A stretch of 64,000 nt of DNA from positions 186,001 through 250,000 of the forward strand of contig JAIOYF010000005.1 of assembly GCA_021741245.1 (NCBI GenBank). The letters run 5' to 3'. The notes under the pieces were generated by a model. The model had not been told where the DNA came from, made no database searches, and saw nothing but the letters and a program-made list of their open reading frames with translations. The DNA is from Paracoccaceae bacterium (GTDB taxonomy: Bacteria; Pseudomonadota; Alphaproteobacteria; Rhodobacterales; Rhodobacteraceae). Below, in pieces: positions 21,295-39,589 of the stretch. The translations under genes were made by a program, and so were the position numbers. The number at the start of each line of letters is the position of its first letter. Position 1 is the stretch's first letter.

Positions 21295-21968
21295 GCGCGC
21301 TGTTGCAGGTCAGCGATCTGGTCAAGACCTATGGCACGGGCGGGGCCGCCACCCATGTGCTGCGCGGGCTTTCGCTGGAACTGGTGGCGGGGGAGATGGC
21401 CGCCCTTCTTGGCCCCTCGGGGTCGGGGAAAAGCACGCTTTTGACCATTCTGGGCACGCTGATGCAGCCGACATCAGGCCGCTATTCGATGCTGGGGCAG
21501 GATCTGGTTGTGGCTGATGAAGCGGATCTGACCACGTTTCGCAATCTGCACATCGGCTTTGTGTTTCAGTTTCACAACCTGCTGCCGGATTTTACCGCGC
21601 TTGAGAATGTGATCTTTCCCACCGCTGTCCGTGAGGGGCGCGAAACAGCCAGCGCACGGGCGCGCGGGCGCGACTTGCTGACGCGCATGGGACTGGCGGA
21701 TCGGATCAACTTTCCCTCGGCCAACCTGTCGGGCGGGCAAAAACAGCGTGTGGCGGTGGCCCGCGCCTTGATGAACCAGCCCGAACTTGTGCTTGCGGAT
21801 GAGCCGACGGGGAACCTTGATCGCGAGTCCGCAGCCCAGGTGATGGAGTTGATCGCCGAGATCAACCGTGATGAGGGGACGACTTTTCTGATCTCGACCC
21901 ATGATGAAAAGATCGCAGCCCTGTGCCGCCGTCAGATCGTCGTGGGGGATGGGGTCGTCACAGGCTAG
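21291..21968 (+). CDS. MacB/LolD-type ABC ATPase
   Basis: A 225-residue ATPase: Walker A GPSGSGKST near residue 43, Q-loop GFVFQFHNLLPDFTALENV (a hallmark of the LolD/MacB group), signature LSGGQKQRV, Walker B LVLADEPTGNLD and the switch His in FLISTHDEKIA. It powers mechanotransmission through the preceding permease and adaptor to export or extract a substrate. The 4-bp overlap with the permease gene defines the start. The three genes form one operon; a TetR-type regulator follows 216 bp downstream on the same strand. Confidence 0.92.
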   Translation: MSALLQVSDLVKTYGTGGAATHVLRGLSLELVAGEMAALLGPSGSGKSTLLTILGTLMQPTSGRYSMLGQDLVVADEADLTTFRNLHIGFVFQFHNLLPDFTALENVIFPTAVREGRETASARARGRDLLTRMGLADRINFPSANLSGGQKQRVAVARALMNQPELVLADEPTGNLDRESAAQVMELIAEINRDEGTTFLISTHDEKIAALCRRQIVVGDGVVTG

Positions 21969-22833: not shown

Positions 22834-22997
22834 GCCCTCCCAAGACGCCCTCAAAACAGGGAAAATTGAAAATCACCTGTAAGAACACGGTTTTCCAACC
22901 GAAAAACGGGCATCAACAACGTTGACTCAGGTTTAATCGCAACCGTTCCTCAAAGGATATTGGGGTCATTTCGACCTTGTTTTGTTGGGGCTGTCTC

Positions 22998-23687
22998 ATG
23001 AAGAATTCAATTTCTGCGGTTTTGACCGCCACTTGCTTTGGCTTTTTTGCACCTGCCGTTTCGGCGGCGACAATAAATCTGATCACGGTTGCCGATGGAT
23101 CCGTTCAAGATACCAGCGGGCCGGTTATTGCAATCGACGACGCAGCAAGCGTAACGGCCTCGAATGTAAACGGCTTTGTCTCCAGCCGTGCTGTTTTTGA
23201 GTTCGATTTGTCGGGCATTTTGGATACCTCGACAATCAGCGCGGCCACCTTTGGGTTTACCGCCAGCGGCCCAACCTCTGCCATCGACGGGGTGGTTGAA
23301 TTCACGGTTGATGCCTATCTGGGCAATGGCGTGATTGATGTTGATGATTTCACGGCAATCGGCACCGAGGTGATCAGCGCGTCGCTTGGCGTGCCAACCG
23401 CGACAGGCACGATGTTTTCCTTTGCGCTGTCAACTTTGCTTCCTCTGCAAAATGCGCTAGCGGGGGATCTGCTGACGATGCGCCTGTCTGTGACCGAGCC
23501 GTTCGAACAAATCCGGATCGGTTTCTTGGAAAGTGCGGTCACATCCGCGCCCTACGCACCCGCATTCCTGACGGTGGAGGCAACGCCGATTGTGGTTGCG
23601 CCCCCGGCTGTTCCTCTGCCCGCCGGATTGCCGCTTTTGCTGGCAGGTTTGGGGGCACTTGGCTTTGTACGTCGCAAAAAGCGCTGA
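22998..23687 (+). CDS. VPLPA-CTERM sorting-domain protein
   Basis: A 229-residue exported protein. It has a signal peptide (MKNSISAVLTATCFGFFAPAVSA), a body rich in Ser, Thr, Val and Asp that looks all-beta (ASVTASNVNGFVSSRAVFEFDLSG and similar), and a C-terminal tripartite sorting tail: the VPLPA motif, a transmembrane helix (GLPLLLAGLGALGFV) and the basic RRKKR. Such tails are the sign for exosortase-mediated processing and surface display or release with extracellular polysaccharide. No exosortase gene is in the window. The first ATG at 22977 is less likely than 22998, which begins the signal peptide. Composition is less GC-rich than the neighbourhood. Confidence 0.88.
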   Translation: MKNSISAVLTATCFGFFAPAVSAATINLITVADGSVQDTSGPVIAIDDAASVTASNVNGFVSSRAVFEFDLSGILDTSTISAATFGFTASGPTSAIDGVVEFTVDAYLGNGVIDVDDFTAIGTEVISASLGVPTATGTMFSFALSTLLPLQNALAGDLLTMRLSVTEPFEQIRIGFLESAVTSAPYAPAFLTVEATPIVVAPPAVPLPAGLPLLLAGLGALGFVRRKKR

Positions 23688-25407: not shown

Positions 25408-26133
25408 TCAGGCAAGCAGCGGCCCTCCGTGATCCAGATAGGCTTCGTCAAACCCTGCAAAATCAACCAACTTATTATAGTTTTCAAAGACGACCAATCC
25501 GTCCCGGAAACTGACCATCCCCTCTTCACGCAACTGCCGCAAAACCCGGTTGACGTGAACCGCACTCAGGCCAAGCGCATCGGCCATCAGGTATTGCGTC
25601 AGCGGACATTGGTATCCGCTTTTGTTGCCCATGCCCACAAGGGCAAGGCGCGACCCGAGTTCCAGCAAAAAATGTGCCATCCGCTCTATCGCCGTGCGCC
25701 GCCCGATGTCGACCAGATGCTCGACCACCATCGCTTCGTCACGCGATGCCGCCCATAAAACGGCCATCGCCAGCCGGGGTGTTTTGCCAAAGGCGTCCAG
25801 CAGATCGCCGACCATGACCTCTGACACCTCGATATCGGTGATGGGTTCGATGCTGTGATCGGACATATGCAAAAGCACGCTGCGCAGCCCAAGAAAATCG
25901 CCGGGAATCTGGAAGTCGATGATCTGGCGCTCGCCATCTGGCAAGATCTTGTAGGAGCAGGCCCAACCCGAGGCGAGGATATAGGCCGCCTGATCTGACT
26001 GCCCCTGATGCACAAGATCGCGGCCCGCAACAAAGGTGCGGCGACGCTTGTGCAGCGTTTCAATGACAGAAAGTTCAACATCCGACAGGGCAACGAAAGT
26101 GCCCAATTTGCGGACCAGTGGCGTGTTCTTCAT
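25408..26133 (-). CDS. Crp/Fnr family transcriptional regulator
   Basis: A 241-residue regulator. The cyclic-nucleotide-binding-like domain covers about residues 15-130 (RRTFVAGRDLVHQGQSDQAAYILASGWACSYKILPDGERQIIDFQIPGDFLGL). A dimerisation helix follows, and then a C-terminal winged helix (CPLTQYLMADALGLSAVHVNRVLRQLREEGMVSF). There are no Fnr-type N-terminal iron-sulfur cysteines, so it is not an oxygen sensor of that type. This group in Rhizobiales and Rhodobacterales is often linked to stress genes. It could regulate the small genes around it; a 6-bp dyad lies upstream of its own start. Confidence 0.9.
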   Translation of the reverse strand: MKNTPLVRKLGTFVALSDVELSVIETLHKRRRTFVAGRDLVHQGQSDQAAYILASGWACSYKILPDGERQIIDFQIPGDFLGLRSVLLHMSDHSIEPITDIEVSEVMVGDLLDAFGKTPRLAMAVLWAASRDEAMVVEHLVDIGRRTAIERMAHFLLELGSRLALVGMGNKSGYQCPLTQYLMADALGLSAVHVNRVLRQLREEGMVSFRDGLVVFENYNKLVDFAGFDEAYLDHGGPLLA

Positions 26134-26543: not shown

Positions 26544-26901
26544 GGCCGCCTACAATGCAGTCCTGACCCGAAGACCCATTGCCAAACACGGGTTGGCATC
26601 TGCGCTAGGGCAGGCTTTTTGGCCAAATAGTGCTTGGTCTGCGACGTATTCAGCCCGGGCCTTTGGTGTTTCATGATGGCCAAGGTGGTCTTGCCCCTGC
26701 CCGCCGAAGATCGGTCCCAAACCCGTCATTTTCGGCCCCGGCGCAGTTTGTTGCCGCTTCAGTGGCGAAATCCTGCGACGAAACCCACCATCCCCGAAAC
26801 TTTGGCGGTTCCATTCGGCCCCTTTGTCCTTACAGTTTTGCCATCCCGTGAGGAGACGGGGCAAAGCGCGGGCTTGCCCGCACCACCTGAAGGAGGATTC
26901 C
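26544..26901 (+). other. 358-bp non-coding region / TAXI operon leader
   Basis: No convincing gene is seen in this stretch on either strand. Near its right end two hairpins precede the Shine-Dalgarno sequence AAGGAGGA (26890-26897): an imperfect one at 26838-26865 (TTGCC-CCCGT with ACGGG-GCAA) and a perfect GCGGGC-TT-GCCCGC at 26868-26881. A weak sigma-54-like pattern, TGG at 26686-26688 and GC at 26699-26700 with the right 10-base gap, is also present, but the remaining bases fit poorly. Confidence 0.5.
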
Positions 26902-27873
26902 ATGACCAAGACCGTAACGCGCAGCCTACGTGGGCTCGTGGCGGGTGCCACGATCGCGACGGCATCCGTAACCGCACCTATGGCCGCACAGGCCGAAGAA
27001 TTCATCAACATCCTGACGGGCGGCACCTCTGGCGTCTACTACCCGATTGGCGTTGGCCTTTCCAAAATCTTCGCGGATGGCATTTCCGGTGCCCGGACAC
27101 AGGTGCAATCCACCAAAGCCAGCGTGGAGAACCTGAACCTGTTGCAACAGGGCAAGGGTGAGTTTGCCATCGCGCTGGGCGATTCCGTGAAATACGCGTG
27201 GGAGGGCAATGCCGACGTGGGCTTTGCGGCCCCGCTGGACAAGATCCGGGGCATTTCGGCGGCCTATCCGAACTATATTCAGGTCGCGGCCTCGGCTGAC
27301 AGCGGCATCACCACGATTGCCGATTTCAAGGGCAAGGCCATTTCCGTGGGCGCGCCCAAGTCAGGCACCGAACTGAACGCCCGCGCGATCATGGCCGCGA
27401 TGGGCATGAGCTATGAGGATTTCTCCAAAACCGAATATCTGCCGTTCGCGGAATCGGTAGAGCTGATGAAGAACCGCCAGTTGGATGCCACGCTGCAATC
27501 TGCGGGTCTTGGGGTTGCGTCGCTGAAGGATCTGGCGACCTCGGTTCCGACGACCATTGTGGCCATTCCGGCAGATGTGGCCGAAAAACTGGGCGCACCC
27601 TATCTGGCGGCAACCATCCCGGCTGGCACCTATGAGGGGCAGACAGCCGATATCCCGACACTGGCCGTTGGCAACTTTTTCCTGACCCATGCCGATGTGT
27701 CGGAAGAAACCGTCTATCAGATGACCAAGCTGATGTTTGAAAACCTGCCCGAACTGGTTGCGGCACATAAGGCCGCCACAGCGATCACGCTGGAAACCGC
27801 GCTCAACGGCATGCCCGTGCCGCTGCATCCGGGGGCCGAGCGGTATTACCGCGAAGTCGGTCTGATCAAGTAA
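26902..27873 (+). CDS. TAXI family TRAP transporter substrate-binding protein
   Basis: A 323-residue periplasmic protein of the TAXI type. After a signal peptide (about residues 1-31, ending PMAAQA) comes the mature start EEFINILTGGTSGVYYPIGVGLSKI, the hallmark of the family. Other blocks are TKASVENLNLLQQGKGEFAIALGDS and KGKAISVGAPKSGTELNARAIM. TAXI proteins feed TRAP permeases with fused small and large subunits; known ligands include glutamate, 2-oxoglutarate-like acids and glutamine. A strong AAGGAGGA sits 5 bases before the ATG at 26902. Abundant expression compared with the permease is expected from the hairpin that follows. Confidence 0.93.
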   Translation: MTKTVTRSLRGLVAGATIATASVTAPMAAQAEEFINILTGGTSGVYYPIGVGLSKIFADGISGARTQVQSTKASVENLNLLQQGKGEFAIALGDSVKYAWEGNADVGFAAPLDKIRGISAAYPNYIQVAASADSGITTIADFKGKAISVGAPKSGTELNARAIMAAMGMSYEDFSKTEYLPFAESVELMKNRQLDATLQSAGLGVASLKDLATSVPTTIVAIPADVAEKLGAPYLAATIPAGTYEGQTADIPTLAVGNFFLTHADVSEETVYQMTKLMFENLPELVAAHKAATAITLETALNGMPVPLHPGAERYYREVGLIK

Positions 27874-27893
27874 ACCCGCGTCAAAGACGGGAG

Positions 27894-27915
27894 GGGCGGG
27901 CCAGACGGCCCGCCC
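27894..27915 (+). repeat. Intercistronic hairpin between binding protein and permease genes
   Basis: GGGCGGGCC at 27894-27902 and GGCCCGCCC at 27907-27915 form a perfect 9-bp stem with loop AGAC. Hairpins of this kind protect the upstream part of an mRNA or attenuate the downstream part, so the binding protein is made in excess. Confidence 0.65.
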
Positions 27916-27937
27916 GATTGAGATAAGGGAGGGCAAG

Positions 27938-30013
27938 ATGACACACGCCGCAACCACGGCCCCAAATCCGCATGATCCGCTGGCCGCAGGCTTTCCGCCG
28001 GGGTGGGAGGGGCGCGCCCTGTTCTGGATTGCGGTTGCCTTTTCGGTCTTTCAGATTTTGACCGCAGCCCATCTGGTCGACTTCGCCTCGCAGGTCACGC
28101 GGGCGTTTCACGTGGGCTTTCTGATGCTTCTGGGCTTTCCCATTCTGGCGCTGATGCGCGGGGCAGGGGGGCAGGTCCGGGCCCTCGCTTGGGCCGCCGC
28201 ATCGGTGGGCGTTGTGATTGCCCTTTACCAATGGTGGGATTTCGTGCCGCTTTTGATGCGGGCGGGCGATCCCTTGCCGCGCGACATTGCCTTTGGCGTG
28301 GCGGCGCTTGTGCTGGTCTTTGCCGCTGCTTGGGCGATGATGGGGCCAGCTTTGCCGATCATCGCGGGCAGCTTTCTGGCCTATTGCCTCTGGGGGGAAT
28401 ACCTGCCCAGCCCGCTGAACCATCGCGGCTACGATTTTTCGCAAGTTATAGACCACATGGCCTATGGCACCGAGGGGATTTACGGGATTCCGACCTATGT
28501 TTCCTCGACCTTCATCTTCTTGTTCATCCTGTTTGGGGCCTTTTTGGAAAAGGCGGGGATGATCAAGCTGTTCACCGATGTCTCGATGGGCCTTGTCGGC
28601 CACAGGCAGGGCGGGCCTGCCAAGGTTTCCGTCCTGTCTTCGGGGCTGATGGGCACGATCTCGGGCTCGGGTGTGGCCAATGTGGTGACGACGGGGCAAT
28701 TCACCATCCCGCTGATGAAGCGTTTCGGCTATAGCCCGGCCTTTGCGGGCGGGGTGGAGGCAACGGCCAGCATGGGCGGGCAGTTGATGCCGCCCGTGAT
28801 GGGGGCGGTTGCCTTTATCATGGCCGAGACTTTGGGCGTAGAATATGTCGAGGTGGTTCAGGCCGCCGTGATCCCCGCGATCTTATATTTCGCCGCAGCC
28901 TTCTGGATGGTGCACCTTGAGGCGGGCCGAATGGGGCTGAAAGGCCTGAGCAAGGCGGAACTGCCTTCGCCCAAGGCCGCGCTCAAAGAGGGCTGGCACC
29001 TGATCTTGCCGCTGGGCGTTTTGGTCTGGCTGTTGTTTTCGGGCTATACGCCGCTGTTTGCGGGCACCATCGGCCTTGGGCTGACGGTGATGCTGATCCT
29101 TGGGGCCAGCGTGGCGCTGGGCCTGCCTGCAGGCGTGATCCGCTATATCTTCTGGATCGGGCTGGGCCTTACCGCCGGGGCCTTCTTGCAATTCGGCATC
29201 TGGGTCGTAGTCGGCGCGATTGCGCTGCTGATCGCGGCCAATGCCATCAGCAAAGGCGGGCGCGCGACGCTGCTGATTTGCCGCGATGCCCTCGCAGATG
29301 GCGCGAAAACCGCCCTTCCAGTGGGGATTGCCTGCGCGCTGGTGGGGGTGATCATCGGCACGATGACTCTGACCGGGGCCGCCAATACCTTTGGCCAGTT
29401 CATTGTGGGCGTGGGCGAGAAAAGCCTGTTCTTGTCGCTGATCCTGACGATGATCACCTGCATCGTCTTGGGGATGGGCATCCCGACAATCCCCAATTAC
29501 ATCATCACCTCGTCCATCGCGGGGCCCGCGCTGTTGGAGTTGGGCGTGCCGCTGATCATCAGCCATATGTTCGTGTTCTATTTCGGCATTCTCGCGGATC
29601 TGACGCCGCCTGTGGCGCTGGCCTGTTTTGCCGCCGCCCCGATTGCCAAGGAACGCGGGCTGACCATCTCCATTCAGGCGGTCAAGGTGGCGGCGGCGGG
29701 GTTCGTGATCCCCTTCATGGCGGTCTATACGCCCGCCCTGATGCTGCAAGATGGTGGGCCTTTGGCGCAGTCTATCGGCTATGTTCCGGCAGTGGTTTAC
29801 ATCGTGGTCAAGGCGGCGCTGGCGATTGGTCTGTGGGGCGTGGCGGTGATCGGCTGGCTTGGGCGGCCGCTGGCGTTGTGGCAACGCGGGCTTGCGGTCG
29901 CCGCCGCAGGTACCCTCATCGCCGCCCTGCCGATCACGGATGAGCTGGGCTTTGCCCTTGTCGCAGCCTTTGCCGGGTCGGTCTGGTGGCAACGCCGGCG
30001 GGCCCTTGCATGA
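27938..30013 (+). CDS. TRAP transporter permease, fused DctQM (TAXI type)
   Basis: A 691-residue integral membrane protein. The first part, with about four helices, corresponds to the small DctQ subunit, and the large part is the DctM transport domain. Landmarks are YDFSQVIDHMAYGTEGIYGIPTYVSSTFIFLFILFGAFLEKAGMI, GLMGTISGSGVANVVTTGQFTIPLMK, FAGGVEATASMGGQLMPPVMGAVAF and GMGIPTIPNYI. These are the conserved sodium/substrate motifs of TAXI-TRAP permeases. It imports an organic acid together with sodium ions, using the binding protein encoded just upstream. The next gene overlaps its stop by 4 bp. Confidence 0.94.
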   Translation: MTHAATTAPNPHDPLAAGFPPGWEGRALFWIAVAFSVFQILTAAHLVDFASQVTRAFHVGFLMLLGFPILALMRGAGGQVRALAWAAASVGVVIALYQWWDFVPLLMRAGDPLPRDIAFGVAALVLVFAAAWAMMGPALPIIAGSFLAYCLWGEYLPSPLNHRGYDFSQVIDHMAYGTEGIYGIPTYVSSTFIFLFILFGAFLEKAGMIKLFTDVSMGLVGHRQGGPAKVSVLSSGLMGTISGSGVANVVTTGQFTIPLMKRFGYSPAFAGGVEATASMGGQLMPPVMGAVAFIMAETLGVEYVEVVQAAVIPAILYFAAAFWMVHLEAGRMGLKGLSKAELPSPKAALKEGWHLILPLGVLVWLLFSGYTPLFAGTIGLGLTVMLILGASVALGLPAGVIRYIFWIGLGLTAGAFLQFGIWVVVGAIALLIAANAISKGGRATLLICRDALADGAKTALPVGIACALVGVIIGTMTLTGAANTFGQFIVGVGEKSLFLSLILTMITCIVLGMGIPTIPNYIITSSIAGPALLELGVPLIISHMFVFYFGILADLTPPVALACFAAAPIAKERGLTISIQAVKVAAAGFVIPFMAVYTPALMLQDGGPLAQSIGYVPAVVYIVVKAALAIGLWGVAVIGWLGRPLALWQRGLAVAAAGTLIAALPITDELGFALVAAFAGSVWWQRRRALA

Positions 30014-30369
30014 CGACCTGTCTGATGGCCGGGGCCATGGTGCTTGCCCTGTCAAACCCCGGCTTTTCGCTGCACTGGACCCATTCGGTGGAAAAGGTAG
30101 AATGGGCCGAGGATTGGGCGGTAGAGGGCACAACCCTGCGCCTGACCCGCGCGCGGGTAAAGGGGTCGGGCGCGGGGATGGAACCGGGCGAGGGGGCCGT
30201 TTTGCAAGGCGGCTGGTGGGTCTGGTCGCCCGATCTGTCGGTGCCGTCGCTTTTGCTGGCGGCCTCGGGGGCCACGGGCGCGGGCTGGCAATTGTGCGAT
30301 GGGGCCCTCTGCCATGAGCTGGGTGCCAATCCGGGGGAGGCGCTGTTGATCGCGCCCTGCGCGCCATGA
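30010..30369 (+). CDS. DUF1850 family protein
   Basis: A 119-residue protein of DUF1850, a family almost always encoded beside TAXI-type TRAP permeases. It starts with a short hydrophobic leader (MTTCLMAGAMVLALS) and then the conserved FSLHWTHSVEKVEWAEDWAVEGTTLRLTRARVKGSGAGMEPGEGA block. The Cys pair in QLCDGALCHEL could form a disulfide if exported. It may assist the permease, but no function is known. ATGA overlaps with both neighbours support one transcript. Its start at 30010 was chosen for the overlap. Confidence 0.87.
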   Translation: MTTCLMAGAMVLALSNPGFSLHWTHSVEKVEWAEDWAVEGTTLRLTRARVKGSGAGMEPGEGAVLQGGWWVWSPDLSVPSLLLAASGATGAGWQLCDGALCHELGANPGEALLIAPCAP

Positions 30370-31562
30370 TCACGGCGGATGTGGCCATCATCGGGGGCGG
30401 GATCGTCGGCCTTGCCACCGCGCTGGAGGTGCAGCGCCGCCAGCCCGGCGCAAAGGTGCTGGTGCTGGAGAAAGAGCCCGCCGTCGCCCTGCATCAGACG
30501 GGACGCAATTCGGGGGTGATCCACGCCGGGGTCTATTACCCGCCGGGCAGCCTGAAGGCGCGGTTTTGCCGTGACGGGGCGGCGGCCACGCGGGCCTTTT
30601 GTGACGCCCATGCCATCCCCTATGAGAATTGCGGCAAGCTGATCGTGGCGACGCATGCGGATGAAGTGCCCCGGATGGCCGCACTTTATGATCGGGCTGT
30701 GGCGAATGGGATTGCGATTGAACAGGTCTCTGGCCCCGATGCCCGCGGGTGGGAGCCGAACATCGCCGCAATCGGTGCCCTGTGGTCGCCCAACACAGGG
30801 ATCGTCGACTATGGGGCGGTGGCGCGCAAGATGGCAGAGCTTTTCATCGAACGGGGTGGCGTGATCCAGACTGGCGTGACCGTGACCGGGGGCGCGGAAG
30901 ATGCCTCTGGCATCTTGATCCGCGCTCTGCGCGAACAGATCAGCGTCGGAAAGGCGGTCTTTTGTGCAGGCCTGCACGCGGACCGCATGGCACAGGCCTT
31001 TGGCTTGCAGCCTGACTTTCGCATCATCCCTTTTCGGGGCGAGTATTTCGCCATTGCCCATCAGCCCCCCGATCTGGTGACGCGGCTGATTTATCCCGTG
31101 CCAGACCCCGAAAGACCCTTTCTTGGCGTCCATCTGACGCGCAAGTTCGGCGGGGGATTCACCGTGGGGCCAAATGCCGTGCTGGCTTTGAGGCGTGAAG
31201 GCTATGCCAAGACCGACTTTTCGGCCCGCGATCTGGGGGCTTCGGTCGCATGGCCGGGCTTTTGGCGCATGCTGGGGCGTAATCTTGGCCCGGCGGCCTC
31301 GGAACTGGCGGCCTCGGTCAGTCGGCCCCTTTATCTGAAAAAGGTGCAGCGCTATTGCCCGCAGATCGGGCTGGGGGATCTGAAACCCTACCGCGCCGGG
31401 GTGCGCGCGCAGGCGGTGGCGCGGGATGGGCGATTGATCGACGACTTCTTGTTCTTGCAAGGCCGGCACAGCCTGCATGTGTGCAACGCGCCGTCCCCGG
31501 CCGCCACCGCAGCGATCCCCATCGCCGCCCATATCGTTGACGAACTGCTGGGGCCGCGATGA
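30366..31562 (+). CDS. lhgO: L-2-hydroxyglutarate oxidase
   Basis: A 398-residue FAD-dependent oxidase of the LhgO family. The dinucleotide-binding motif is at the start (VAIIGGGIVGLATALEVQRR), then HQTGRNSGVIHAGVYYPPGSLKARFC, which is a strong LhgO signature, and IPYENCGKLIVAT. The C-terminal half has FLGVHLTRKFGGGFTVGPNAVLA and HVCNAPSPAATAAIPIA. The enzyme oxidises L-2-hydroxyglutarate to 2-oxoglutarate and passes electrons to the quinone pool at the inner membrane. It is embedded between transporter and two-component genes by 4-bp overlaps, which suggests that the imported acid is its substrate or is converted to it. Confidence 0.92.
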   Translation: MITADVAIIGGGIVGLATALEVQRRQPGAKVLVLEKEPAVALHQTGRNSGVIHAGVYYPPGSLKARFCRDGAAATRAFCDAHAIPYENCGKLIVATHADEVPRMAALYDRAVANGIAIEQVSGPDARGWEPNIAAIGALWSPNTGIVDYGAVARKMAELFIERGGVIQTGVTVTGGAEDASGILIRALREQISVGKAVFCAGLHADRMAQAFGLQPDFRIIPFRGEYFAIAHQPPDLVTRLIYPVPDPERPFLGVHLTRKFGGGFTVGPNAVLALRREGYAKTDFSARDLGASVAWPGFWRMLGRNLGPAASELAASVSRPLYLKKVQRYCPQIGLGDLKPYRAGVRAQAVARDGRLIDDFLFLQGRHSLHVCNAPSPAATAAIPIAAHIVDELLGPR

Positions 31563-33304
31563 CCCTGTGGCACCGCGCCGTTCTTCCCCTTTTGGCGGCG
31601 CTGATCGCGGCGCTTTTGGCCTATGTCATGGCCGAGCGGATCGCCCAATCTGCGGTGACGGCGCGGCTTGACCAATCGCTGTTGCTGACCTCGCGCGCGG
31701 TCATGGCCGAGATCGACCGCTTTCGTGCGCTGCCCGATGTGGCGGGCGAGGATGCCCGCATCCGCGCAGCCCTTGCCGATCCGCGCGCGGTCGAGGCCGC
31801 CAACCGCTATCTTGAAACGGTGGCTGCCCATGCGGGTGCGGCGGAACTGTTCTTGATCAATGCCCAAGGCATCACCATCGCCTCGTCCAATTGGGCGCGA
31901 GAGGGGTCCTTTGTCGGGCAGGACTACAGCTTTCGCCCCTATTTCACCCAAGCCATGCAGGCAGGCCGGGGGCAGTTTTATGCGATTGGCGTGACCACAG
32001 GGGTGCCGGGGTATTTTCTGGCCACCCGCATCACCTCGGGCATGGTGCGCGGGGTCTTGGTGGTCAAGGTCGATCTGCGCCCGCTGGAAGCGACATGGCG
32101 CAAGGCGGGGTTGATGACGGCCTTGGCCGATGGCGATGGGGTGATCTTTCTGTCCGGCCCGGAAGACTGGCTTTACCGTCCGCTGCGCCCGCTTTTGCCC
32201 ATGGCTTTGTCACGTCTGGCCGAAGAACGGACCTATGTTGGTATTGATCTTGGCACAGCCCCGCCGCTTTTGACCGGACCCACCTTGGCGAAGGGTGCGC
32301 TATGGGCAGGTGGAGTGGCGCGGTTGGCCGATCTGCCGGACCCCGATTGGCAGTTGTTGGCCGCCGCCCCCACGGGCCCGGTGACGGCGGTTGCACTGGC
32401 ATGGGCGCTGGGGGCAGCGGCCTTGGCCCTTGTGCTGGCGGGCATGGTCAAGGCGTGGGATCAGCGTCGCCAGATCATCGCCCTGCGCCTGAGCCAGTCG
32501 GAAAAGCTGGAGGCGATGGTCACCGCCCGCACCTTTGATCTGGCGCGTGAGGTCGAGGCCCGCAGACAGGCCGAAACCGATCTGCGCGCCGCGCAAGAGC
32601 ATCTGATCCATGCCGAAAAGATGGCCGCCCTTGGCCGCATGTCGACGGCCATCGTGCATGAAATCAGCCAACCCCTTGCCGCGATGGAGGCAACCCTGAC
32701 CGCCGCCGAAATGACCCTTGCCCCCGATGAAACCCGGATCATGGCGCGTCTGGCCACCGCAAAGGGCCTGATCCGCCGGATGCAGCGCACGACCAAACAC
32801 CTCAAGAGCTTTGGTCGCAAAGAGGCCGGGGCGCTGTCGTTGATCGACCTTGGGCCTGTCGTCACCTCGGCCATCGAATTGGTCACGCCGCGCGCCCGCA
32901 CGGTGGGGGTGGCCCCGTCCTTTGCCGGGGGCCATGCGCAGGTGATGGCAGGGGCGGTCAGGATGGAACAGGTTCTGGTCAATCTGCTGATCAATGCGCT
33001 TGATGCGGTTGAGGGGCGCGGGGATGCGCAGATTGCCGTGACGCTGGAGGTGGCGGGCGGCAAGGCCCATCTGCGGGTGACCGACACAGGCCACGGGATT
33101 GCCCCCGATGATCTGGCCCGCGTGACCGAGCCGTTCTTTTCGACCAAGATCAGCGGTGAGGGGCTTGGCCTTGGCCTGTCGATCAGCCGGGCCATTCTGG
33201 CCGAGTTTGGCGGCGATCTGTCCGTCGCCTCGACCCAAGGGCAGGGCACTTGCGTCACCGTCAGCCTGCCCTTGGCCGAGGCGCAGATGGAGGCCGCACA
33301 ATGA
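31559..33304 (+). CDS. DctB-like sensor histidine kinase
   Basis: A 581-residue membrane kinase. It has a first transmembrane helix (residues about 8-24), a periplasmic double-PAS domain with the DctB-type segment SSNWAREGSFVGQDYSFRPYF and GQFYAIGVTTGVPGYFLA (residues about 110-155) that in DctB surrounds the dicarboxylate site, and a second helix near 277-297. Then follow a coiled linker, the phosphoacceptor His367 in AIVHEISQPLAAME, and an ATPase domain (QVLVNLLINALDAVEGR, VTDTGHGIAPDDL, GEGLGLGLSIS). It should sense an extracellular organic acid and phosphorylate the next gene product. ATGA overlaps join it to lhgO and to the regulator. Confidence 0.92.
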   Translation: MTLWHRAVLPLLAALIAALLAYVMAERIAQSAVTARLDQSLLLTSRAVMAEIDRFRALPDVAGEDARIRAALADPRAVEAANRYLETVAAHAGAAELFLINAQGITIASSNWAREGSFVGQDYSFRPYFTQAMQAGRGQFYAIGVTTGVPGYFLATRITSGMVRGVLVVKVDLRPLEATWRKAGLMTALADGDGVIFLSGPEDWLYRPLRPLLPMALSRLAEERTYVGIDLGTAPPLLTGPTLAKGALWAGGVARLADLPDPDWQLLAAAPTGPVTAVALAWALGAAALALVLAGMVKAWDQRRQIIALRLSQSEKLEAMVTARTFDLAREVEARRQAETDLRAAQEHLIHAEKMAALGRMSTAIVHEISQPLAAMEATLTAAEMTLAPDETRIMARLATAKGLIRRMQRTTKHLKSFGRKEAGALSLIDLGPVVTSAIELVTPRARTVGVAPSFAGGHAQVMAGAVRMEQVLVNLLINALDAVEGRGDAQIAVTLEVAGGKAHLRVTDTGHGIAPDDLARVTEPFFSTKISGEGLGLGLSISRAILAEFGGDLSVASTQGQGTCVTVSLPLAEAQMEAAQ

Positions 33305-34620
33305 CCGCGCGGGTGTTCGTGGTGGATGATGATGCCGACCATCTGGCCGCCGTCTGTGATCTGATGGGGGCGGCGGGCCATGCGGTGCAAGGCTTTTGTG
33401 CCGCCAGCGATGCCCTGAGCGCGCTGCAAGAGGCGGCCCCGGACCTGATCCTGACCGATCTGCGCATGCCGGGGATGGACGGGATGGGTTTGCTTGTGGC
33501 CCTGCGCGCGCGGGACCATGACCTGCCGGTGATCATGCTGACCGGGCATGGCGATGTGGTGCATGCCGTGCAGGCCATTCGCGCCGGCGCCGAGGATTTT
33601 CTGGAAAAGCCCTATGATGCCGCCCATCTCTTGATGGTCGTGGCCCGCGCCCTTGCCGCCCGTGCGACAAGGGCCGAGGTGGGCCGCTTGCAAGCCGTGC
33701 TGGCCGAAGGGGCGCAGGCCACCTTGCTTGGTCAAAGCCGCGCCATCGGTGCCCTGCGCGACCGGATCGCGGCGCTGGCCCCGCTGGATGTGGATGTGGT
33801 GATCACGGGAGAGACAGGCACGGGCAAGGAACTGGCGGCGCGGGCCTTGCACGCCGCCAGCCCCCGCGCCCCCGGCCCCTATGTGGCGATCAATTGTGCG
33901 GCCCTGCCGGAAATGATGTTTGAAACCCTGATGTTTGGCCATGCCGAGGGCGCATTTCCCGGCGCGGGCCCGGCACGGGCTGGCAAGATCGAGGCGGCAA
34001 TGGGCGGCACCTTGATGCTGGATGAGGTGGAGGCAATGCCGCTGCCCCTGCAGGCCAAGCTGTTGCGGGTGCTGCATGAGCGTCAGGTGGAACGGCTGGG
34101 CGATCACGACCTGCGCCCCGTTGATCTGCGGGTGATTGCCACCTCTAAAACCGATTTGCGATTGGCCAGCGCAGAGGGGCGCTTTCGCGCCGATCTGTTC
34201 TATCGCCTTGCCGGGGCCGAGCTTTCCACGCCACCCTTGCGCGACACCGGGGCCGATATCGCGCTGATCTTTGCCCATTATGCGCAGCTTGCTGCACGGC
34301 GCTATGGCCGCCCGGACCCTGACCTGCCCTATGGGCTTGCCCGGCAATTGGCGCGGCGTCCTTGGCCGGGGAACATGCGCGAACTCAAGGCCGCAGCCGA
34401 GGCGCATGCGCTGGGCCTCTTGGACATGCCCCGGCCCGATACACCTGCACTGCCCGATGCGCCCCTTGCAGACCGCGTGGCGGCGTTCGAGGCGCGCGAG
34501 ATTGCCGCCGTGCTGGACCGCCACCGGGGCAACACCATCCGCGCCGCCGAAACCCTTGGCCTGCCGCGCCGCACCCTGAACGACAAGATGCGCCGCTATG
34601 GCCTAAAGGCTGATCCGTAA
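33301..34620 (+). CDS. DctD-like sigma-54 response regulator
   Basis: A 439-residue NtrC-family regulator. The receiver domain has phosphoacceptor Asp53 (LILTDLRMPGMDG) and Lys103 (FLEKPYD). The AAA+ domain has Walker A GETGTGKE (170-177), Walker B LMLDEV (238-243) and an R-finger region after GRFRADLFYRL. The C-terminal Fis-like helix-turn-helix is DRHRGNTIRAAETLGLPRRTLNDKMRRYG. The sigma-54 contact loop reads GAFPGA at 217-222, where GAFTGA is usual. Expected targets are sigma-54 promoters of the transporter operon. The gene overlaps the tail of convergent putR by 25 bp. Confidence 0.92.
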   Translation: MTARVFVVDDDADHLAAVCDLMGAAGHAVQGFCAASDALSALQEAAPDLILTDLRMPGMDGMGLLVALRARDHDLPVIMLTGHGDVVHAVQAIRAGAEDFLEKPYDAAHLLMVVARALAARATRAEVGRLQAVLAEGAQATLLGQSRAIGALRDRIAALAPLDVDVVITGETGTGKELAARALHAASPRAPGPYVAINCAALPEMMFETLMFGHAEGAFPGAGPARAGKIEAAMGGTLMLDEVEAMPLPLQAKLLRVLHERQVERLGDHDLRPVDLRVIATSKTDLRLASAEGRFRADLFYRLAGAELSTPPLRDTGADIALIFAHYAQLAARRYGRPDPDLPYGLARQLARRPWPGNMRELKAAAEAHALGLLDMPRPDTPALPDAPLADRVAAFEAREIAAVLDRHRGNTIRAAETLGLPRRTLNDKMRRYGLKADP

Positions 34621-35075
34621 ACCTCTTTCACCGCCTCCATCGCCACATAGGTCGAGGTGCTGGCGACATGGGGCAGGGCGCTGATCTGTTCGGCCAGAAC
34701 GCGGCGATAGTCCTGAATGTCGCCTGTGCGCACCTTCAGCAGATAGTCAAAGCGGCTGGCGATCATGTGGCATTGCTCCACCTCCGGCACGGCCAGCACG
34801 GCCTTGTTAAAGGCCTGAAGGGCGGCCTCACGTGTGTCAGACAGCTTCACCTCGACAAAAGCCACATGCGCAAGGCCCATCCGGATCGGGTCCAGCCCGG
34901 CGCGGTAGCCGGTGATCACACCCGCCTCTTCCAGCCGTTTCATCCGGGCTTGGGTGGGGGATTTTGACAGGCCGATGCGGCGGGCAAGCTCGGTCGCGCT
35001 GATCCGCCCTTCGGTGGCAAGCACGCGCAAAATCGCGGTGTCAAAACGGTCAAGGTCGCTGGGTTGATCTGACAT
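34596..35075 (-). CDS. putR: Lrp/AsnC family regulator, PutR-like
   Basis: A 159-residue Lrp-type regulator. The N-terminal helix-turn-helix is LDRFDTAILRVLATEGRISATELARRIGLSKSPTQARMKRLEEAGVITGY, and the ligand-binding RAM domain includes HVAFVEVKLSDTREAALQAF, VEQCHMIASRFDYLLKVRTGD and LPHVASTSTYVAMEAVKE. Its position, divergent from putA with 101 bp between, matches PutR, which activates putA in response to proline in Rhodobacter and Agrobacterium. The ATG at 35075 gives the full family length. A TTCCC-N7-GGGAA dyad lies in the shared promoter region. Confidence 0.9.
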   Translation of the reverse strand: MSDQPSDLDRFDTAILRVLATEGRISATELARRIGLSKSPTQARMKRLEEAGVITGYRAGLDPIRMGLAHVAFVEVKLSDTREAALQAFNKAVLAVPEVEQCHMIASRFDYLLKVRTGDIQDYRRVLAEQISALPHVASTSTYVAMEAVKEVYGSAFRP

Positions 35076-35176: not shown

Positions 35177-38100
35177 ATGTCCGCCGATTCCCCCGATTTC
35201 CCATGGTCCATCATTCAATCCGGCGCGCTGCGCGATGAGGCGGCCTTGGTCGCTGACCTGATCCATCAGGCGGCCCTGCCCATGGCTGCGCGGGCCGCCA
35301 TTTCGGCGCAGGGGGCCGATCTGGTCACACGCATCCGGCAAGTGGCCCGTCCGGGCTTGATGGAGGTTTTTCTGGCCGAATACGGCCTGTCCACGCATGA
35401 GGGCATCGCGCTGATGTGTCTGGCAGAGGCGCTGTTGCGTGTGCCCGATGCCGAAACGATGGATGCCCTGATCGAGGACAAGATCGCGCCATCCGATTGG
35501 GGGCGGCATCTGGGCCAGTCTTCCTCCAGCCTTGTCAATGCCTCGACCTGGGCGCTGATGCTGACGGGCCGCGTGTTGGAGGACCGCGATCCGGGCGTGG
35601 TGGGCCATTTGCGCGCGGCGGTAAAGCGGCTGGGCGAACCTGTGATCCGCACCGCCGTGTCGCGTGCGATGAAAGAGATGGGGCGGCAGTTCGTTCTGGG
35701 CGAGACGATTGACAAGGCGATGACCCGCGCCCGCGAGCTGGAGAGCAAGGGCTATACCTATAGCTACGACATGCTGGGCGAGGCGGCCCGTACCGAAGCC
35801 GACGCGCGGCGCTATCACCTCAGCTATTCCCGCGCGATCACTGGGATTGCAGCGGCGGCCAAGGGCAATGACATCCGCGCCAATCCGGGGATTTCGGTCA
35901 AACTTTCGGCGCTGCATCCGCGCTATGAGGTGGCAAAGCGCGCCCGCGTCATGGAAGAACTTGTGCCCCGCGTGCGTGCGCTGGCGGGGTTGGCCAAGGC
36001 GGCGGGCCTTGGCTTCAACATCGACGCCGAAGAGGCGGACCGTCTGGCCCTGTCGCTGGAGGTGATCGAAGAGGTGCTGCGCGACCCCACGTTGAAGGGC
36101 TGGGATGGCTTTGGCGTCGTGGTGCAGGCTTACGGTCGGCGCGCAGGCGCTGTGATCGACTGGTTGCATGCGCTGGCCACGCGGCTCGATCGCCGCATCA
36201 TGGTGCGACTGGTCAAGGGCGCCTATTGGGATGCCGAGATAAAGCGCGCGCAGGTTCTGGGGCTGACCTCCTTCCCGGTCTTTACCCGCAAAGAGGCGAC
36301 GGACGTGTCCTATATCGCCAATGCCCGCAAACTCTTGTCGCGGGCGGACCGCATCTATCCGCAATTTGCCACCCACAACGCCCATACGGTGGCGGCGGTG
36401 CTGCATATGGCGGATGAGATGGGGCTGGACCCGATGGCCTTTGAATTCCAGCGCCTGCACGGCATGGGCGAGCGGTTGCATGACATCGTGCTGACCGATC
36501 GTGGCACGCGCTGCCGGATCTATGCCCCCGTGGGCGCGCATCGCGATTTGTTGGCCTATCTTGTGCGGCGCTTGCTGGAGAATGGGGCCAACAGCAGTTT
36601 CGTGAACCAGATCGTGGACGAAGAGGTGCCCCCCGCCCGTGTGGCGGCCTGCCCGCTGACGGCGATGGGGGGGCTGAGCCTGCCCAACAAGGCGCTGCTG
36701 ACGGGGCCAACCCTGTTCGGGGCGCGGGTCAATGCACGGGGCTGGGATCTGACCGATGCGGTGGATCTGGGCCAGATCGAGGCCGCCCGTGCGCCCTTTG
36801 CCGATACGGTGTTTGAGGCAGCGCCCATGCTGGCGGGCCGGGCGGCAGGTGGGATGCGGCACGAGGTTGCGAACCCCGCCACAGGCGCGCGGGTGGGCTT
36901 TGTCACCTATGCCGCGGAGGTGGATGTGCAAACCGCGCTGCGTCTGGCAGAGCCATGGGCGGCGGCGGCACCAGAGCGGGCCGAGGTCTTGCGCCGGGTG
37001 GCCGATCTTTATGAGGCAGAGTTCGGCCCGATCTTTGCCCTTTTGGCACGTGAGGCGGGCAAGACCCAAGCCGACGCCGTGTCAGAACTGCGCGAGGCGG
37101 TGGATTTCTTGCGTTATTACGCCGACGGGGCGGCAGGGCTTGCCCATCCGGCGCGGGGTGTTTTTGCCTGTATCAGCCCATGGAACTTTCCGTTGGCGAT
37201 TTTCACCGGCCAGATTGCGGCCGCACTGGCGGCGGGCAATGGGGTTCTGGCCAAGCCCGCCGAACAAACCCCGCTGATCGCGGGCCTTGCCGTGGGCCTG
37301 ATGCACCGGGCGGGTGTTCCGCTAAGCGCCTTGCAATTGCTGCCGGGAGATGGCGCGGTAGGGGCGATGCTGACGGCGGATGCGCGGGTGGCGGGGGTGG
37401 CCTTTACCGGCGGCACCGATACGGCGCTCAAAATCCGCGCCAGCATGGCCGAACATCTGGCCCCCGGCGCGCCGCTGATCGCCGAGACGGGGGGCTTGAA
37501 CGCGATGATCGTGGACAGCACGGCCCTGCCCGAACAGGCAGTGCGTGACATCCTTGCCTCCAGCTTTCAATCGGCCGGGCAGCGTTGTTCCGCCCTGCGC
37601 TGCCTCTATCTGCAACAAGATGTGGCAAAGCCGATCACCGAGATGCTGTTTGGCGCGATGGACGATATGGCGCTTGGCGATCCGTGGGATCTGGCCACCG
37701 ATATCGGCCCGGTGATTGACGCCGAGGCGCAGGCGGGCATTGCCGCCTATATCGCGGCGGCAAAAGCCGAAGGGCGGTTGTTTAAAGAAATGCCCGCGCC
37801 AGAAGGGGGCAGTTTTGTCGGGCCGACGGTGATCAAGGTCACGGGGATCGAGCAGATGCCGCGTGAGATCTTTGGCCCCGTGCTGCACATCGCCACCTTC
37901 AAGGCCGCTGCCATCCCCGCCATCGTGCAAGCGATCAACGCCACCGGATACGGGCTGACCTTTGGCCTGCACAGCCGGATCGACGACCGGGTGCAAGAGG
38001 TAGTCGAGGCGGTGCACGCGGGCAATATCTATGTCAACCGCAACCAGATCGGGGCGGTTGTGGGCAGCCAGCCCTTTGGCGGCGAGGGGCTGTCAGGCAC

Positions 38101-38626
38101 CGGGCCAAAGGCAGGCGGACCGCATTACCTGACCCGATTTACCCGGCAAGCCGCACCGACTGTGCCCGACATCGATCCCGCGCGGGATCTGGCCCTGATC
38201 AAGCGGGCCCTGTCTGCCCCACAGGCCCGGTCTGCGGCGCAGGTTATGGATTTGCCCGGCCCCACGGGGGAATCCAACCGCCTGACCTTGGTGCCCCGCG
38301 ATCCGGTCTTGTGCCTTGGGCCAACGCCCGCCCTCGCCTTGCAGCAAGCCGAGGCGATCCGGGCGCTGGGCGGGGTCGCGGTGGAGGCGCTGGGCCTTGC
38401 GCCTGATGCGCTGACGGACCTGCTCGGCTTTTCAGCCGTGATCTTTTGGGGGGATGCGGCGCAGGCCCGCGGCTATGCCCGCGCCCTTGCCCTACGCAAA
38501 GGCCCGATCCTGCCGCTGATCACCGATCATCCCGACCATGGCCACGCGGTTTTGGAGCGTCACACCTGCATTGACACCACCGCGTCGGGCGGCAATGCCC
38601 AGCTGTTGGCCGAGGTTGGCGGCTAG
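35177..38626 (+). CDS. putA: Bifunctional proline dehydrogenase / L-glutamate gamma-semialdehyde dehydrogenase
   Basis: A 1149-residue PutA. The FAD proline dehydrogenase barrel lies in about residues 130-460 (KGYTYSYDMLGEAARTEADARRYHLSY, IDAEEADRLALSLEVIEEVL, VRLVKGAYWDAEIKRAQ, FATHNAHTV, FEFQRLHGMGE). The NAD aldehyde dehydrogenase follows at about 540-1000, with SPWNFPLAIFTGQIAAALAAGN, ETGGLNAMIVDSTAL and the catalytic Cys in SAGQRCSALR. A C-terminal region of about 130 residues resembles the domain that helps close the substrate tunnel. There is no N-terminal ribbon-helix-helix, so it is not self-regulating; putR does this. It converts proline to glutamate. CAGGAG precedes the ATG at 35177. 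Confidence 0.96.
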   Translation: MSADSPDFPWSIIQSGALRDEAALVADLIHQAALPMAARAAISAQGADLVTRIRQVARPGLMEVFLAEYGLSTHEGIALMCLAEALLRVPDAETMDALIEDKIAPSDWGRHLGQSSSSLVNASTWALMLTGRVLEDRDPGVVGHLRAAVKRLGEPVIRTAVSRAMKEMGRQFVLGETIDKAMTRARELESKGYTYSYDMLGEAARTEADARRYHLSYSRAITGIAAAAKGNDIRANPGISVKLSALHPRYEVAKRARVMEELVPRVRALAGLAKAAGLGFNIDAEEADRLALSLEVIEEVLRDPTLKGWDGFGVVVQAYGRRAGAVIDWLHALATRLDRRIMVRLVKGAYWDAEIKRAQVLGLTSFPVFTRKEATDVSYIANARKLLSRADRIYPQFATHNAHTVAAVLHMADEMGLDPMAFEFQRLHGMGERLHDIVLTDRGTRCRIYAPVGAHRDLLAYLVRRLLENGANSSFVNQIVDEEVPPARVAACPLTAMGGLSLPNKALLTGPTLFGARVNARGWDLTDAVDLGQIEAARAPFADTVFEAAPMLAGRAAGGMRHEVANPATGARVGFVTYAAEVDVQTALRLAEPWAAAAPERAEVLRRVADLYEAEFGPIFALLAREAGKTQADAVSELREAVDFLRYYADGAAGLAHPARGVFACISPWNFPLAIFTGQIAAALAAGNGVLAKPAEQTPLIAGLAVGLMHRAGVPLSALQLLPGDGAVGAMLTADARVAGVAFTGGTDTALKIRASMAEHLAPGAPLIAETGGLNAMIVDSTALPEQAVRDILASSFQSAGQRCSALRCLYLQQDVAKPITEMLFGAMDDMALGDPWDLATDIGPVIDAEAQAGIAAYIAAAKAEGRLFKEMPAPEGGSFVGPTVIKVTGIEQMPREIFGPVLHIATFKAAAIPAIVQAINATGYGLTFGLHSRIDDRVQEVVEAVHAGNIYVNRNQIGAVVGSQPFGGEGLSGTGPKAGGPHYLTRFTRQAAPTVPDIDPARDLALIKRALSAPQARSAAQVMDLPGPTGESNRLTLVPRDPVLCLGPTPALALQQAEAIRALGGVAVEALGLAPDALTDLLGFSAVIFWGDAAQARGYARALALRKGPILPLITDHPDHGHAVLERHTCIDTTASGGNAQLLAEVGG

Positions 38627-38842: not shown

Positions 38843-39589
38843 ATGTTTCCGATCCGCGATCACAACCCCTCTGGCCGCACGCCTTATGTGACCTATGCGC
38901 TGATAGTGGCGAATGTGGGCATATTTCTGGCTTATTTCCCGCAACTGAGTGACGTGCAACTGGCCTATTTCTTTTACGATTGGGGCCTTGTGCCGCGTGA
39001 TCTGTCGCAAGGCCGGGGCTGGTCAGGGTTGATCACCCATATGTTCTTGCATGGCGGCTGGATGCACCTGTTTGGCAATATGCTGTTTTTGTACATTTTT
39101 GCCGACAACATGGAAGATCAGCTTGGCCATGTCCGCTTTGGGATCTTTTACCTTTTGTGTGGGCTGGCGGCGGCGGGCCTGCAAGTTCTGGCCTCGCCTT
39201 TTTCGGATGTGCCGATGGTGGGGGCGTCGGGCGCAATTGCCGGGGTGATGGGGGGCTATCTGCTGCTGTTTCCCAAGGCGCGGATCGATGTGCTGATCAT
39301 CATCGTGGTCTTCTTCCGCATCTTTCCCATCCCGGCTTGGACCGTGCTTGGGATTTGGTTCGTGCTGCAACTGTTCAACGGGGCGACTACCCCGACCGAT
39401 GGCGGAGGCGTCGCCTATTGGGCGCATGCGGGGGGCTTTATCGCGGGGGTCGTGCTGTCCTTGCGGCCTTGGCTGGCACTGGGGGGCATTGCCTTTTGGA
39501 ACCGCACCCACGGCGTCCCGCCACACCCTGAGGCGGAATATAGCGTGCAGCGATCCTCGATCCCAAAGATCCCGCGCAGGCCCGATTAA
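38843..39589 (+). CDS. Rhomboid family intramembrane serine protease
   Basis: A 248-residue rhomboid with six predicted transmembrane helices. The conserved HGGWMHLFGNMLFLYIFADNMED block is followed by the catalytic Ser in VGASGAIAGVMGGYLLL (GxSx motif) and the catalytic His in WAHAGGFIAGVVL. The N-terminal region MFPIRDHNPSGRTPYVTYALI is usual in alphaproteobacteria. It cleaves membrane proteins within the bilayer; substrates are unknown. The gene stands alone on the plus strand, 216 bp after putA, and converges with the inositol monophosphatase gene. Confidence 0.93.
   Translation: MFPIRDHNPSGRTPYVTYALIVANVGIFLAYFPQLSDVQLAYFFYDWGLVPRDLSQGRGWSGLITHMFLHGGWMHLFGNMLFLYIFADNMEDQLGHVRFGIFYLLCGLAAAGLQVLASPFSDVPMVGASGAIAGVMGGYLLLFPKARIDVLIIIVVFFRIFPIPAWTVLGIWFVLQLFNGATTPTDGGGVAYWAHAGGFIAGVVLSLRPWLALGGIAFWNRTHGVPPHPEAEYSVQRSSIPKIPRRPD

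Follow-up and report, generated by a model that had tools for sequence, protein, structure and literature searches.

The predicted operon and its genes

The window analysed here is a stretch of 64,000 nucleotides from the genome of a Paracoccaceae bacterium (G000; contig JAIOYF010000005.1, positions 186,001 to 250,000). Its forward strand carries a predicted six-gene operon that joins a TAXI-type TRAP transporter to an L-2-hydroxyglutarate oxidase (LhgO) and a two-component system of the DctB/DctD type. The first gene encodes a TAXI-type solute-binding protein with a signal-peptide-like N-terminus (26902-27873; PF16868; TIGR02122, TRAP_TAXI, 372 bits against a cut-off of 84) and the second a fused TRAP membrane component (QM, 27938-30013; PF06808; TIGR02123, TRAP_fused, 668 bits against 321). 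By these profile scores, with a binding protein of the family and one fused membrane component encoded beside it, the pair belongs to the TAXI-type TRAP transporters. The genes of a DUF1850 protein (30010-30369; PF08905, 78.5 bits), of the flavin adenine dinucleotide (FAD)-dependent LhgO (30366-31562), of a DctB-like sensor histidine kinase (31559-33304; Pfam dCache_1 and HATPase_c) and of a DctD-like response regulator (33301-34620; Pfam Response_reg, Sigma54_activat and HTH_8) follow. A gap of 64 bases, without overlap, separates the binding-protein gene from the permease gene, and the remaining four junctions are 4-base ATGA overlaps (30010-30013, 30366-30369, 31559-31562, 33301-33304). The six gene calls and four overlaps of a first-pass annotation are borne out by the sequence and its translations, and the family models agree with the gene names it gave (Pfam, with TRAP_TAXI, TRAP_fused and NF008726 over cut-off).

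The window LhgO scores 549 bits with NF008726, the curated model of L-2-hydroxyglutarate oxidase (cut-off 299), and its best relative in PDB is the Drosophila L2HGDH (8w75, E=9.9e-91). Two motifs, NSGVIH (48-53) and IYPVPDP (242-248), are intact and are kept in all six LhgO-bearing members of the gene module described below, with the variant IYPIPDP in G026 and G771. Roles have been reported for Ser88, His92 and Tyr289 of the Drosophila enzyme (PMC10726252), and we transferred these residues to the window protein by motif. With a score over the cut-off of the curated model and the catalytic Ser/His/Tyr motifs, the window LhgO is a predicted L-2-hydroxyglutarate oxidase.

In E. coli and P. putida, the CsiD-LhgO route of glutarate use has LhgO as its second step (PMC6265302, PMC5974017), which speaks for a pathway in which imported glutarate is first hydroxylated, with LhgO acting next as the oxidase; glutarate had also been named as a possible substrate in the first-pass annotation. 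However, a search for CsiD in 12 genomes, among them that of the window, gave no match, with a positive E. coli control. We therefore rejected glutarate via CsiD and regard such a pathway as highly improbable.

LhgO genes beside TAXI genes

LhgO is rare: matches were found in 6 of the 198 family genomes searched, in 9 of 385 at class level and in 45 of 398 at phylum level. These searches contributed 56 LhgO genomes to the set in which we looked for TAXI proteins, and two more (G679, G771) entered it through the search with DctB described below; 44 of the 58 contain a TAXI protein over cut-off. In 12 of the 58, a TAXI gene lies within 3 kb of LhgO on the same strand, against an expectation of 0.09 that presumes random gene order and independent genomes; leaving out G679 and G771, the count is 10 of 56. 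The 12 genomes span seven families, and none of them is among the 17 whose LhgO scores low (about 305-350 bits).

Two distant types of TAXI protein, about 31% identical to each other, take part in these pairs. The type found in the window (type I) is paired with LhgO also in G1114, and type II is paired with it in G168, G418, G1038, G929, G991, G1031 and G950. At E<=1e-80, 18 of the 398 phylum genomes have a type II protein, and 11 of these contain LhgO (adjacent in 5), compared with 34 of the 380 others (Fisher 2e-7, kinship ignored). Either type is present in 15 of 28 LhgO genomes and in 4 of 52 LhgO-less ones (9e-6, kinship ignored), where the 28 are the high-scoring LhgO genomes of the phylum sample with the window's excluded, the 52 are about one seventh of its LhgO-less genomes, assigned to the sample by their numbering, and include many small metagenome-assembled genomes (MAGs), and the threshold for type I (>430 bits, next 263) was fixed after the scores had been seen. 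At family level, LhgO is found in 3 of 18 genomes with the window-type DctB module and in 3 of 180 without it (p=0.011, again ignoring kinship).

The picking of open reading frames in GC-rich DNA favoured wrong frames, which left loci L032-L034, with LhgO but no TAXI gene, largely unannotated and hid some neighbours at L194 and L200. A narrow literature search found no report of the LhgO-TAXI pairing; Roden et al. 2023 may mention an LhgO neighbour. In Isoptericola (L026, 2599-11179), genes of an actinobacterial response regulator and kinase adjoin a TAXI gene, and LhgO follows about 4 kb further downstream, which may be a version of this theme under another regulator.

A conserved module with LhgO as an optional insert

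Of 394 family genomes, 28 have an ortholog of the window DctB (E<=1e-110), and at this threshold there is none in G135, the sole congener sampled. The genes of TAXI binding protein, fused permease, DctB and DctD stand together at all 28 loci, one of them cut by a contig end, and at five the DctB-DctD pair precedes the transporter genes. DUF1850 was detected at 21 of these loci. LhgO lies between DUF1850 and DctB at only four, those of the window, G026, G679 and G771, and occupies the same slot at two further named loci, of Pseudotabrizicola alkalilacus and of a Rhodobacteraceae MAG; at the latter, DUF1850 was not matched. The core of the module is transporter and sensor, and LhgO is an optional insert.

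Where the insert is present, its 4-base overlap with dctB recurs in five of five other members, with start codons picked by similarity to the window's, so that the coupling of the two genes is conserved. When a tree is built from the binding proteins, permeases and DctB proteins of 29 members, four changes are needed to account for the presence of LhgO. The tree of LhgO itself clusters the window, Pseudotabrizicola and the MAG together and unites G026 and G771 in a single fork with two LhgO genes that do not belong to the module. A history of one gain, several losses and some moves would suit these trees, which do not prove it.

Two LhgO-less relatives of the locus may be mentioned here. On a 169-kb plasmid of Fuscovulum ytuae (L108), the module adjoins genes of HupU, HypF and hydrogenase subunits. 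The window's own genome has a second DctB-DctD-TAXI-permease cluster (G000:C22, about 162578-169035; L036, 9663-16036), in which the sensor has the C4-like pair S173/Y179 and DctD reads GAFPGA.

The binding-protein pocket and its relatives

In VcGluP numbering, the pocket of the window binding protein reads Y45, S75, L93, N125, Q200 and S201, the type I pattern, and Y45, S75, Leu93 and Asn125 occur in all 29 module binding proteins (24 close and five more distant). VcGluP and TtGluBP bind glutamate, and mutation of VcGluP lowered affinity 213-fold at Y45, 990-fold at Q93 and only 1.3-fold for E125A (PMC11574862). Q93 and E125 are both present in the three PDB TAXI sequences that we aligned out of seven matched, two of which are known glutamate binders. 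Among 20 control TAXI proteins, drawn from LhgO-containing genomes, E125 is found in 16, of which 15 also have Q93; the remaining four belong to type I (three) and type II (one). The window protein shares the family and two pocket residues, Y45 and S75, with VcGluP and TtGluBP, but carries Leu for Q93, Asn for E125 and Gln for Y200, and hence does not show the residue set Y45, S75, Q93 and E125 of the glutamate binders.

A TAXI transporter of Proteus mirabilis has been reported to be specific for 2-oxoglutarate and 2-hydroxyglutarate (PMC12344293) and is described elsewhere as alpha-ketoglutarate specific and proton driven (PMC11574862). In a chromosome-sized P. mirabilis record, the sole match to the binding protein of G1031 is 77.5% identical to it and of type II; we take it to be the characterised TAXI protein of Roden et al. 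2023. The locus has the order TAXI-QM-GntR-LhgO, with LhgO in the same direction, and thus resembles the window in having TAXI and fused permease genes followed by LhgO, as well as N125 in the pocket, a residue common to both types. The two systems differ in the remainder of the pocket, which in P. mirabilis has Q93, L95, W123 and P201, in the N-terminus of the P. mirabilis protein, which resembles an uncleaved membrane anchor, and in the absence of a DUF1850 match from the P. mirabilis locus. They differ also in regulation, as a GntR/FCD regulator replaces DctB/DctD there, and likewise at the LhgO-TAXI loci of G168 and G1114. The window protein departs from type II at positions 93, 95, 123, 200 and 201, and its genome has no type II match at E<=1e-80.

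The DctB-like sensor

The sensor of the window kinase matches the DctB structures 2zbb (E=1.6e-32), 3e4o and 3by9, with E-values from 8e-30 to 2e-32. HATPase_c is over cut-off, and a HisKA match stays below it with 20.4 of 26.9 bits. In S. meliloti DctB numbering, the dCache sensor has the clamp Y149/R152/K197 together with T173 and F179; the ligand-contact residues of DctB we take to be 149, 152, 171, 173 and 197. The protein thus combines a dCache domain bearing the carboxylate clamp with a kinase core, as in DctB-type kinases. R152, K197, T173 and F179 are invariant among the 30 module kinases compared, and Y149 is replaced only in G771, by Phe. KguS has T173/F179 too, as do the kinases linked to type II transporters in G810 and G1104, whereas the DctB proteins of S. 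meliloti and V. cholerae have S173 and Y179.

KguS/KguR (PMC3694859) and MifS/MifR (PMC4482717), both reported as two-component systems for alpha-ketoglutarate, are, as proposed for the window, DctB/DctD-type pairs for a five-carbon (C5) acid. KguS has T173 and F179 as in the window kinase. Both systems differ from the window in serving other transporters; KguR, moreover, has the GAFTGA loop discussed below, and no LhgO is annotated in the kgu stretch. The statement that DctBD-type sensing of hydroxyglutarate is not well described therefore needs narrowing, since sensing of a C5 acid is already known for alpha-ketoglutarate. Another precedent is LhgR-LhgO of Pseudomonas putida W619, where LhgO is likewise under a pathway-tuned regulator, but one that is a cytoplasmic GntR repressor and not a membrane kinase (PMC8206213).

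Outside the window's family, DctB/DctD genes lie beside TAXI-QM-LhgO in G1038, G929, G991 and V. campbellii, the LhgO of the last being identified by tblastn and an open frame. The order in G1038 is DctB-DctD-TAXI-QM-LhgO; in G929 and G991, dctB is divergent. Type II TAXI genes with DctB/DctD and no LhgO alongside are found in G810, G1104 and G779.

Transporter and sensor might alternatively serve glutamate or C4-dicarboxylates, with LhgO acquired by chance. The glutamate binding of VcGluP and TtGluBP would fit this, as would the closest PDB relatives of the kinase sensor, which are C4-sensing DctB proteins, and the adjoining putA gene, which points to proline or glutamate use. Yet Q93, whose loss is so costly in VcGluP, is Leu and E125 is Asn throughout the module, T173/F179 differ from both C4 DctB proteins, LhgO and TAXI genes are paired far above chance, and putA is not conserved nearby. 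We consider this explanation improbable.

The DctD-like regulator and its operator

The window regulator has receiver, AAA+ and Fis-type helix-turn-helix domains (Pfam), but its sigma-54 contact loop reads GAFPGA, not GAFTGA. GAFTGA is absent from all 29 module DctD proteins, of which 14 read GAFPGA or AAFPGA and the remaining 15 are more degenerate. GAFTGA is present in S. meliloti DctD, in KguR and in the DctD proteins of G929, G991, G810, G1104, G779 and V. campbellii, and the loop of G1038 is GAFTHA. RpoN is present in the window genome (three rpoN-like genes, one over cut-off), as are nine proteins resembling bacterial enhancer-binding proteins, four with GAFTGA or GSFTGA, two with GAFPGA, the window's included, and three with the loop lost; three further weak matches resemble other AAA proteins.

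Upstream of the window operon, the best -24/-12 promoter score is 10.5 of 15, a value that 155 of 200 shuffles attain. We also rejected the idea that members of the window's group share such a promoter, as the best of 29 module upstream regions (G710) is reached by 15 of 200 shuffles. In the six type II modules with DctBD that were scanned, sites score 13-13.5 of 15 and are reached by 0-4 of 500 shuffles; sites are not good in G950 and P. mirabilis, whose LhgO-TAXI loci lack DctBD.

From an alignment of eight upstream regions, we propose a tandem dyad operator at 26741-26782 on the forward strand, about 160 bases before the start codon of the binding-protein gene. It consists of two 16-base dyads whose starts are 22 bases apart. 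In 24 members with the window's gene order, five of which have a TAXI protein only about 40% identical, the best-match sites lie 136-188 bases before the start codon and have the consensus tGGCgGAattCtGCCaCgg.ccTGGCGg...ctTGCcagGAA. A matrix built without the window's site ranks that site first of about 127,900 window positions, narrowly (21.8 bits, next 20.6), where only the matrix excluded the window, as the consensus by which sites were picked came from an alignment including it. With held-out matrices, the chosen site was the top match at 19 of the 25 other loci, and at another three its position came out on top when read on the opposite strand; in G620, the top match is 43 bases from the first-picked site, and at the two flipped-order members these matrices made no such site evident. 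The first dyad of the window is weak, and a fixed pattern allowing one mismatch misses the window copy. At four TAXI loci outside the module, the tandem dyad was not seen. Reading GG-N9-GC in the second repeat as a sigma-54 site was rejected, since the element is a dyad and its spacing is one base shorter than usual for sigma-54.

The label "sigma-54 activator" given to the DctD-like protein in the first-pass annotation is therefore doubtful: the GAFTGA loop is missing from the group, no -24/-12 site was found upstream, a tandem dyad is found instead, and there is precedent in the NtrC of Rhodobacter capsulatus and Caulobacter, which is reported to act without GAFTGA at sigma-70 promoters (PMC10274813). 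Those proteins, too, are enhancer-binding-type regulators without the sigma-54 contact loop, but the window regulator is of the DctD type, and its loop is altered rather than deleted. Judging from these features, the regulator in the window's group has probably lost its usual sigma-54 partner.

Proposed function

We think it rather probable, from the comparisons above, that the operon serves the high-affinity uptake and oxidation of C5 2-oxo- and 2-hydroxy-dicarboxylic acids, and favour 2-oxoglutarate and L-2-hydroxyglutarate as its best ligands. The DctB-like kinase would bind a C5 acid in its periplasmic dCache domain, most likely 2-oxoglutarate and perhaps L-2-hydroxyglutarate too, and would phosphorylate the DctD-like regulator. 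This in turn would bind the tandem dyad and switch on the operon, transcribed probably by the housekeeping and not the sigma-54 polymerase. The TAXI protein would capture 2-oxoglutarate or L-2-hydroxyglutarate, the fused permease would import it, probably together with protons, the coupling reported for P. mirabilis, and LhgO would oxidise L-2-hydroxyglutarate to 2-oxoglutarate, its electrons presumably passing to the respiratory chain.

Several points weigh against this proposal. The co-occurrence statistics of LhgO and TAXI ignore the relatedness of the genomes, and in the phylum sample type I alone is found in 5 of 28 LhgO genomes and 4 of 52 LhgO-less ones, which is not significant (p=0.26). 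The window binding protein is only 31% identical to that of P. mirabilis and differs from it at positions 93, 200 and 201; N125 is a marker, not proof, because E125A costs VcGluP so little. KguS is the sole C5 sensor in our comparison. As the longer kinases of G1038 and of G929/G991 lack the clamp, such modules do not all sense alike. Finally, the binding-protein pocket positions compared are identical, and those of the sensor nearly identical, in members with and without LhgO, so that LhgO is dispensable for the transported ligand.

Given this likeness of the pockets, the main ligand is probably within reach of members lacking LhgO too, with 2-oxoglutarate as the first candidate. The import-sense-oxidise module for a C5 acid envisaged in the first-pass annotation thus remains the best reading, given the recurrent LhgO-TAXI pairing and the P. 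mirabilis transporter, but without its ligand-dedicated part: a dedicated sensing of hydroxyglutarate is not supported, as 2-oxoglutarate would explain the LhgO-less members.

The same likeness of pockets speaks for a rival explanation in which the operon imports and senses 2-oxoglutarate only and LhgO serves metabolite repair: a heavy influx of 2-oxoglutarate would lead malate dehydrogenase and similar enzymes to form L-2-hydroxyglutarate in a side reaction, and LhgO would return it to 2-oxoglutarate. Formation of L-2-hydroxyglutarate from 2-oxoglutarate by malate dehydrogenases has indeed been described (PMC10726252). We also count in favour of repair that the genomes of two close LhgO-less members (G104, G175) have no LhgO match in the family search (6 of 198 match). 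Direct uptake is plausible, however, since the P. mirabilis transporter is reported to take 2-hydroxyglutarate too (PMC12344293), and LhgO stands beside TAXI genes in seven families. We regard the repair explanation as unlikely, and prefer uptake and oxidation of both C5 acids.

More tentatively, and as a reading less likely than not, we suggest that bacteria across the Pseudomonadota have repeatedly assembled TAXI and LhgO into dedicated systems that scavenge external L-2-hydroxyglutarate, placed in several lineages under a DctB/DctD-type pair with a periplasmic sensor that detects C5 hydroxy and oxo acids directly, and that the DctD of the window's group has left sigma-54 for a tandem dyad and the housekeeping polymerase. 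The families involved are known; we found no description of their combination with LhgO, of its recurrence or of the lost sigma-54 signature. So far, L-2-hydroxyglutarate has figured mainly as an undesired by-product and an oncometabolite. If the suggestion is true, a widespread uptake system would make it a genuine nutrient in the environment. N125 of the binding protein and T173/F179 of the kinase could serve as testable criteria by which TAXI proteins and DctB-type kinases of unassigned ligand are given one. Because one kind of module exists both in a GAFTGA/sigma-54 version and in a GAFTGA-less version with a different operator, it is well suited to the study of how enhancer-binding proteins depart from sigma-54.

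The DUF1850 protein and neighbouring genes

The DUF1850 protein is predicted to be all-beta, and its AlphaFold model has a mean predicted local distance difference test (pLDDT) score of 87.7. The model has no PDB fold match at E<=0.001. The protein may represent a small new fold tied to TAXI permeases, and it is possibly exported.

Downstream of the operon lie an Lrp/AsnC gene (putR, 34596-35075, reverse strand) and the PutA gene (35177-38626, forward strand), to which the first-pass annotation had linked the operon. At the 29 other module loci, no PutA-like match turned up in the flanking sequence covered, which was a few kb long and less near the ends of contigs. The PutA neighbour therefore looks incidental, and we dropped both the operon link and a connection to proline or glutamate through putRA.

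On the opposite strand upstream of the operon is a gene of a Crp/Fnr-type regulator (25408-26133). Farther upstream, HlyD-type and ABC transporter genes (18899-21968) are followed by that of a protein with a weak PEP-CTERM sorting motif (22977-23687), and downstream of putA lies a gene of a rhomboid-family protease (38843-39589).

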